The notes below the pieces were generated by a model that made no database searches, was not told where the DNA came from, and saw only the letters and a list, made by a program, of their open reading frames with translations. From contig NC_084663.1 in NCBI RefSeq assembly GCF_028389875.1, positions 16,568,666 through 16,632,665 on the forward strand: a DNA stretch of 64,000 nt, written 5' to 3'. The stretch's first letter is position 1. Each line of letters begins with the position of its first letter. A program made the position numbers and the translations under genes. The DNA is from Rhea pennata. Taxonomy: Eukaryota > Chordata > Aves > Rheiformes > Rheidae. Positions 1,867-63,232 of the stretch are shown one piece after another.

Positions 1867-63232
<61,366 letters not shown>

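Follow-up and report, generated by a model that had tools for sequence, protein, structure and literature searches.

An alpha-glucosidase gene in Rhea pennata carries a TAG within the frame of its fourth exon, which raises the question of whether the gene has been lost, or is still working through an error in the recorded bases or a bypass of the stop. The window (the whole 64 kb stretch of DNA that was analysed) contains no N, and 22 exons of the gene were placed in it on the forward strand, between 1867 and 63232. Every joint keeps the frame, and the joined sequence has 869 codons with one stop. As the initial annotation had stated, all the other exons are open and their phases match; no further stop and no frameshift were found across the joined exons. 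Read in its two other forward frames, the joined sequence contains 33 and 66 stops, which shows that the open frame is genuine and that the TAG within it is no matter of chance. The description as a 22-exon gene holds for the window but gives a minimum, since exon 22 is followed by a donor (gtaaga), with 768 bases of the window left. The gene is thus probably incomplete here and would run past the window end. If this donor is unused, the frame closes seven codons on, at a TAG read from the sequence at 63254-63256.

A TATA-box-like element TATAAAAGA (1825-1833, forward strand as for all features below) is located 42 bases before the start codon. In the 500 bases upstream of the start, the best HNF1-type site has three mismatches (one site), and none has fewer. 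Exon 1 (1867-1912) contains the start codon in the context GCCATGG. It is followed by exon 2 (5111-5345), which encodes a trefoil (P-type) domain (PF00088, 49.3 bits, residues 30-73), exon 3 (6419-6521), which ends in phase 0, and exon 4 (6649-6794), which bears the premature stop. Exons 5 (17952-18120), 6 (18827-18923), 7 (19734-19846) and 8 (31475-31600) precede the exons with the catalytic motifs. The DIDYM motif is encoded by exon 9 (32163-32294), and beyond exon 10 (38545-38658) the WIDMNE motif is split between exon 11 (38771-38887, first two residues) and exon 12 (39009-39093, the remainder with the catalytic nucleophile). Exon 13 (42489-42606) has an unusual donor. Exon 14 (45705-45873) encodes the RSTF and HWLGDN motifs including the acid/base residue, and exon 15 (46412-46528) encodes DICGF and SRNHN. 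The remaining exons are 16 (49161-49309), 17 (53502-53586), 18 (56730-56786), 19 (58612-58742), 20 (59480-59568), 21 (59956-60005) and 22 (63074-63232).

The noncoding parts of the window have some further features. A CpG-island-like stretch lies in intron 1 (3001-4000; GC 56-67%, CpG observed/expected 0.79-1.04) and is possibly an alternative promoter. The stretches at 14250-14520 and 5990-6160 resemble avian CR1 remnants. Four uninterrupted runs of 27-35 A occur on the sense strand in introns 4, 7, 11 and 12 (15763-15792, 26200-26226, 38922-38951 and 42222-42256), and intron 16 contains a 26-base unit in two tandem copies (49817-49868). The Rfam search of the window at gathering scores gave 0 matches, and ARAGORN predicted 0 genes in it.

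The alpha-glucosidase assignment of the initial annotation was borne out by the Pfam domains and by the matches to solved structures, and by sequence the gene is a GH31 alpha-glucosidase of the SI/MGAM kind. Besides the trefoil, Pfam detected the N-terminal galactose-mutarotase-like domain (31.5 bits), the GH31 barrel (PF01055, 369.1 bits) and the C-terminal domain (PF21365, 91.5 bits). The top match among solved structures was the two-module MGAM 9kz6 (1637 bits summed over its matches), followed by the human MGAM N-module (881 bits), the SI N-module (865 bits), the MGAM C-module (815 bits) and GAA (771 bits). GAA was rejected as the closest relative by sequence: within the solved structures, its chains score below those of MGAM and SI. 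The window protein shares 47.7% identity with human MGAM N (803 columns), 48.4% with SI N (802 columns) and 49.0% with MGAM C (802 columns). For comparison, the N- and C-modules of human MGAM share 44.9% identity over 798 columns, and MGAM N and SI N are close kin (60.8%). In a distance test of four sequences (794 columns, unrooted), all 500 bootstraps placed the window protein with the C-module, apart from the two N-modules. This unrooted grouping suggests that the window protein may be a sister to the C-type or may branch near the N/C split.

The overall layout also resembles these enzymes. Like MGAM, the window gene combines a trefoil, a GH31 barrel and a C-terminal domain with identical catalytic motifs; however, MGAM has two GH31 modules, whereas one is seen in the window. 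The start of exon 1 encodes a short hydrophobic stretch with the trefoil close behind, which by eye resembles a signal peptide and not a membrane anchor; MGAM has a stalked membrane anchor. Together, the putative signal peptide and the module content of the window suggest that the protein is probably a secreted SI/MGAM relative with one GH31 module in the window, and a second module could lie beyond the window. The window protein is about equally distant from the N- and C-modules of MGAM and is thus no plain orthologue of either. Brun et al. (2020) are said to have reported that MGAM itself is mammal-specific. The N-terminal (isomaltase) module of SI has an equal layout and a similar identity; SI differs in its anchor and second module, neither of which was seen in the window. 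The GAA proteins (gaa i and gaa ii in birds) have a trefoil, a single GH31 module and a signal peptide, a layout like that of the part of the gene in the window with its signal-peptide-like start, but the GAA score falls below that of the MGAM N-module.

The enzyme part is well conserved. The six motifs inspected (DIDYM, WIDMNE, RSTF, HWLGDN, DICGF and SRNHN) are identical to those of the three human modules, and the nucleophile, acid/base and pocket motifs are therefore preserved, as previously described; WIDMNE is presumed to hold the catalytic nucleophile and HWLGDN the acid/base. The retention of invariant residues was compared over the 809 columns common to the four sequences, which span part of exon 2, exons 3 to 21 and part of exon 22. 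Of the 295 positions at which the three human modules agree, 245 (83.1%) are retained in the window protein. As controls, each human module was left out in turn, with the window protein placed among the three references; MGAM N and SI N each kept 245 of 268 (91.4%), and MGAM C kept 245 of 321 (76.3%). The window protein lies below both N-modules and above the C-module, so there is no excess of lost residues. The retention by exon ranges from 50% (exon 21, 3/6) to 100% (exon 3, 4/4; exon 20, 12/12), with 9/12 in exon 4 and 13/21 in exon 5.

The stop itself (6667-6669) is codon 135 and, as reported, the single in-frame stop among the 869 codons. Exon 3 ends in phase 0, and exon 4 reads ATT TAT GAT CCT AAC CAC, then TAG, then CGA TTT GAA GTT and onward to a GT donor. 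Relatives do carry an amino acid here in the five modules aligned residue by residue, without a gap: N in human MGAM N, R in SI N, N in MGAM C, and D and N in the two modules of 9kz6. By this alignment, the stop falls on a variable position. At the neighbouring residues D131, R136, E138, V139 and P140, the window protein agrees with all three human modules. Ahead of the stop are the signal-peptide-like start and the trefoil domain, and the whole catalytic barrel lies beyond it. At least 18 exon junctions are located downstream of the stop; by the usual rule, a stop with many downstream exon junctions makes the message a target of nonsense-mediated decay.

The explanation that we consider probable is that the TAG is a real null allele of recent origin, either fixed or still segregating, in the gene for a probably secreted SI/MGAM-related GH31 alpha-glucosidase. 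The message would then be destroyed by nonsense-mediated decay, or it would yield a 134-residue fragment without the catalytic domain, made up of the signal-peptide-like start, the trefoil and part of the N-terminal domain. This explanation is consistent with one stop in 869 codons, matching phases, a barrel of 369 bits, intact motifs, the 83.1% of invariant positions retained, the low score of the exon 13 donor and no spare exon 4 in the window. On the other side, open exons everywhere except in the fourth are equally expected of a functional gene whose stop is a base error or is bypassed, and a residue inserted at the variable stop position would probably be tolerated. Young unitary or polymorphic pseudogenes of digestive enzymes typically have one or two disabling changes in an otherwise well kept gene. 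The window gene resembles them, with a disabling TAG at codon 135 and the rest well kept.

The gene had been called otherwise intact, which applies to the reading frame and the catalytic residues but not clearly to splicing. AG is present at all 21 acceptors, and GT at 20 of the 22 donors; exons 13 and 17 have GC. The exon 13 donor (CCA|gcaaga, 42606-42612), whose position follows from the phase of exon 14 and from an alignment to the human C-module that has no gap there, also lacks the G at -1. On a scale based on approximate donor frequencies, it scores -1.19, the lowest of the 22; exon 5 is next with 3.75, and the other 21 donors score at least 3.75. The GC donor of exon 17 (GAG|gcaagt, 53586-53592) is otherwise near the full consensus, with strong flanks and a score of 4.99, and probably belongs to a working GC-AG intron. 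According to PMC2490688, GC donors keep nearer to the consensus elsewhere in the site. PMC7242645 gives their share among the coding introns of human and mouse as about 0.8% and finds that as a class they score below GT donors. At a rate of 0.8%, the chance of at least two GC donors among 22 is about 1.3%. When +1 and +2 are left out, the exon 13 donor reaches 1.47, higher than the donors of exons 5, 18, 11 and 9; its flanks are therefore weak, yet matched by other donors of the gene. The GT donor of exon 5 likewise has the consensus at just 5 of 9 positions. An alternative donor for exon 13 was considered and rejected: the best frame-keeping one in the scanned stretch, located after 42582, has a score of 0.87, and its use would cost the protein eight codons. 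We regard the exon 13 donor as a candidate second lesion, overlooked in the initial annotation, which may add an independent defect to the TAG, although a GC donor may function.

The age of the loss was modelled with 2607 bases and 84 splice-site bases, a transition weight of 4, and indels at one tenth of substitutions. Among the substitutions possible in the 2607 bases, 3.6% would create a stop. The substitution rates were assumed to be 1.5, 2.2 and 3.0e-9 per site and year, and the gene end lies outside the data, so the estimates hold to an order of magnitude. Under these assumptions, disabling changes of all kinds would arise at 0.53, 0.77 and 1.06 per million years, and the 95% age bounds without a further lesion are 5.7, 3.9 and 2.8 million years, respectively. 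Counting the exon 13 donor as a lesion raises the bounds to about 9.0, 6.1 and 4.5 million years (hand arithmetic, Poisson, at most one). To an order of magnitude, the loss would be young, of a few million years or less.

A base error and a bypass are both less likely than a young null allele. The first of these, an error of base calling or assembly at 6667-6669 in a gene that still works, is unlikely. One wrong base would suffice, and the open frame elsewhere and the intact catalytic motifs fit a working gene. However, a lone substitution error that makes a stop here should be rare in a good assembly; moreover, the window has no N, the TAG site is outside any homopolymer run, and the weak exon 13 donor would be left unexplained.

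An active gene in which splicing uses the AG of the TAG itself (6669|6670) is clearly improbable. Because exon 3 ends in phase 0 and the AG is followed by CGA, an exon that began at 6670 would stay in frame and lose seven codons (six sense codons and the stop). The tract before this AG is 65% pyrimidine, which equals or exceeds 9 of the 21 used acceptors (range 53-100%). In contrast, the regular acceptor at 6648 uses the first AG past the pyrimidine tract, which there is 82% pyrimidine, and the shorter exon would lose D131, which is invariant in the three human modules and by homology would belong to the N-terminal beta-sandwich. The other ways of splicing out the TAG that the initial annotation had left room for do not hold up in the window. 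Skipping exon 4 would join phase 0 to phase 2 and lose the frame. A mutually exclusive exon 4 was also rejected: tblastn of exon 4 against the window returned exon 4 itself (1e-29), with the next match at E 2.4, and thus no spare copy. Of the splicing routes considered, the AG of the TAG is the one that would keep the frame.

It is very improbable that the gene has been re-used, either through the in-frame skip at the stop's AG or through a truncated product in which the signal peptide and the complete trefoil, left after loss of the enzyme part, would act as a secreted trefoil-factor-like peptide. A long-dead pseudogene, whose function was lost long ago, is very doubtful as well. Two candidate lesions (the TAG and the exon 13 donor) could be read in its favour; against it, there is no frameshift, only one stop in 869 codons and intact catalytic motifs, and several lesions would be expected after 5-10 million years at the assumed rates. 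The earlier opinion that the gene is not long dead agrees with these observations, which give no sign of prolonged decay.

Ribosomal readthrough of the stop is highly improbable. The UAG is followed by C, and with N, R, N, D and N in the relatives, many residues might fit at this position. On the other hand, PMC9841425 describes termination as normally more than 99.9% efficient and UGA followed by CUAG as the readthrough-prone mammalian signal, and the UAG here precedes CGAUUU, which differs from that strong signal. There is also no unusual structure nearby, since the local fold around the stop has a z of -0.95, and 36 of 200 shuffles fold at least as well. Finally, A to I editing of the UAG to a sense codon is scarcely credible: UAG is a neighbourhood favoured by ADAR enzymes, but the same unremarkable fold applies, and a blastn search of the window with 6521-6900 as query (E up to 1) gave no minus-strand match spanning the stop, the minus-strand matches falling outside it and mostly in A/T runs.

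Among the literature matches listed, the titles and abstract openings contained nothing on this gene or this stop in a bird. An exact 26-base pattern was found in 0 stretches of the microbial and viral contig collections, where a bird gene is unexpected. Recent nonsense alleles are a common kind of finding, and an early stop in a gene is an ordinary kind of event. The suggestion that the loss would be notable for diet evolution is weak and premature, as birds carry other alpha-glucosidase genes, namely gaa i and gaa ii (PMC6487185) and SI (PMC8119460); with these genes present, the biological weight of the finding is modest. The exon 13 donor provides a second, independent site that bears on the state of the gene. 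If the TAG proves to be an error or is bypassed, the locus would be a warning on calling gene losses from a single assembly. If the allele is segregating, a test within the species would be possible. If it is fixed, one bird lineage would recently have lost an alpha-glucosidase, and whether diet or redundancy with other alpha-glucosidases was the driver would become testable.
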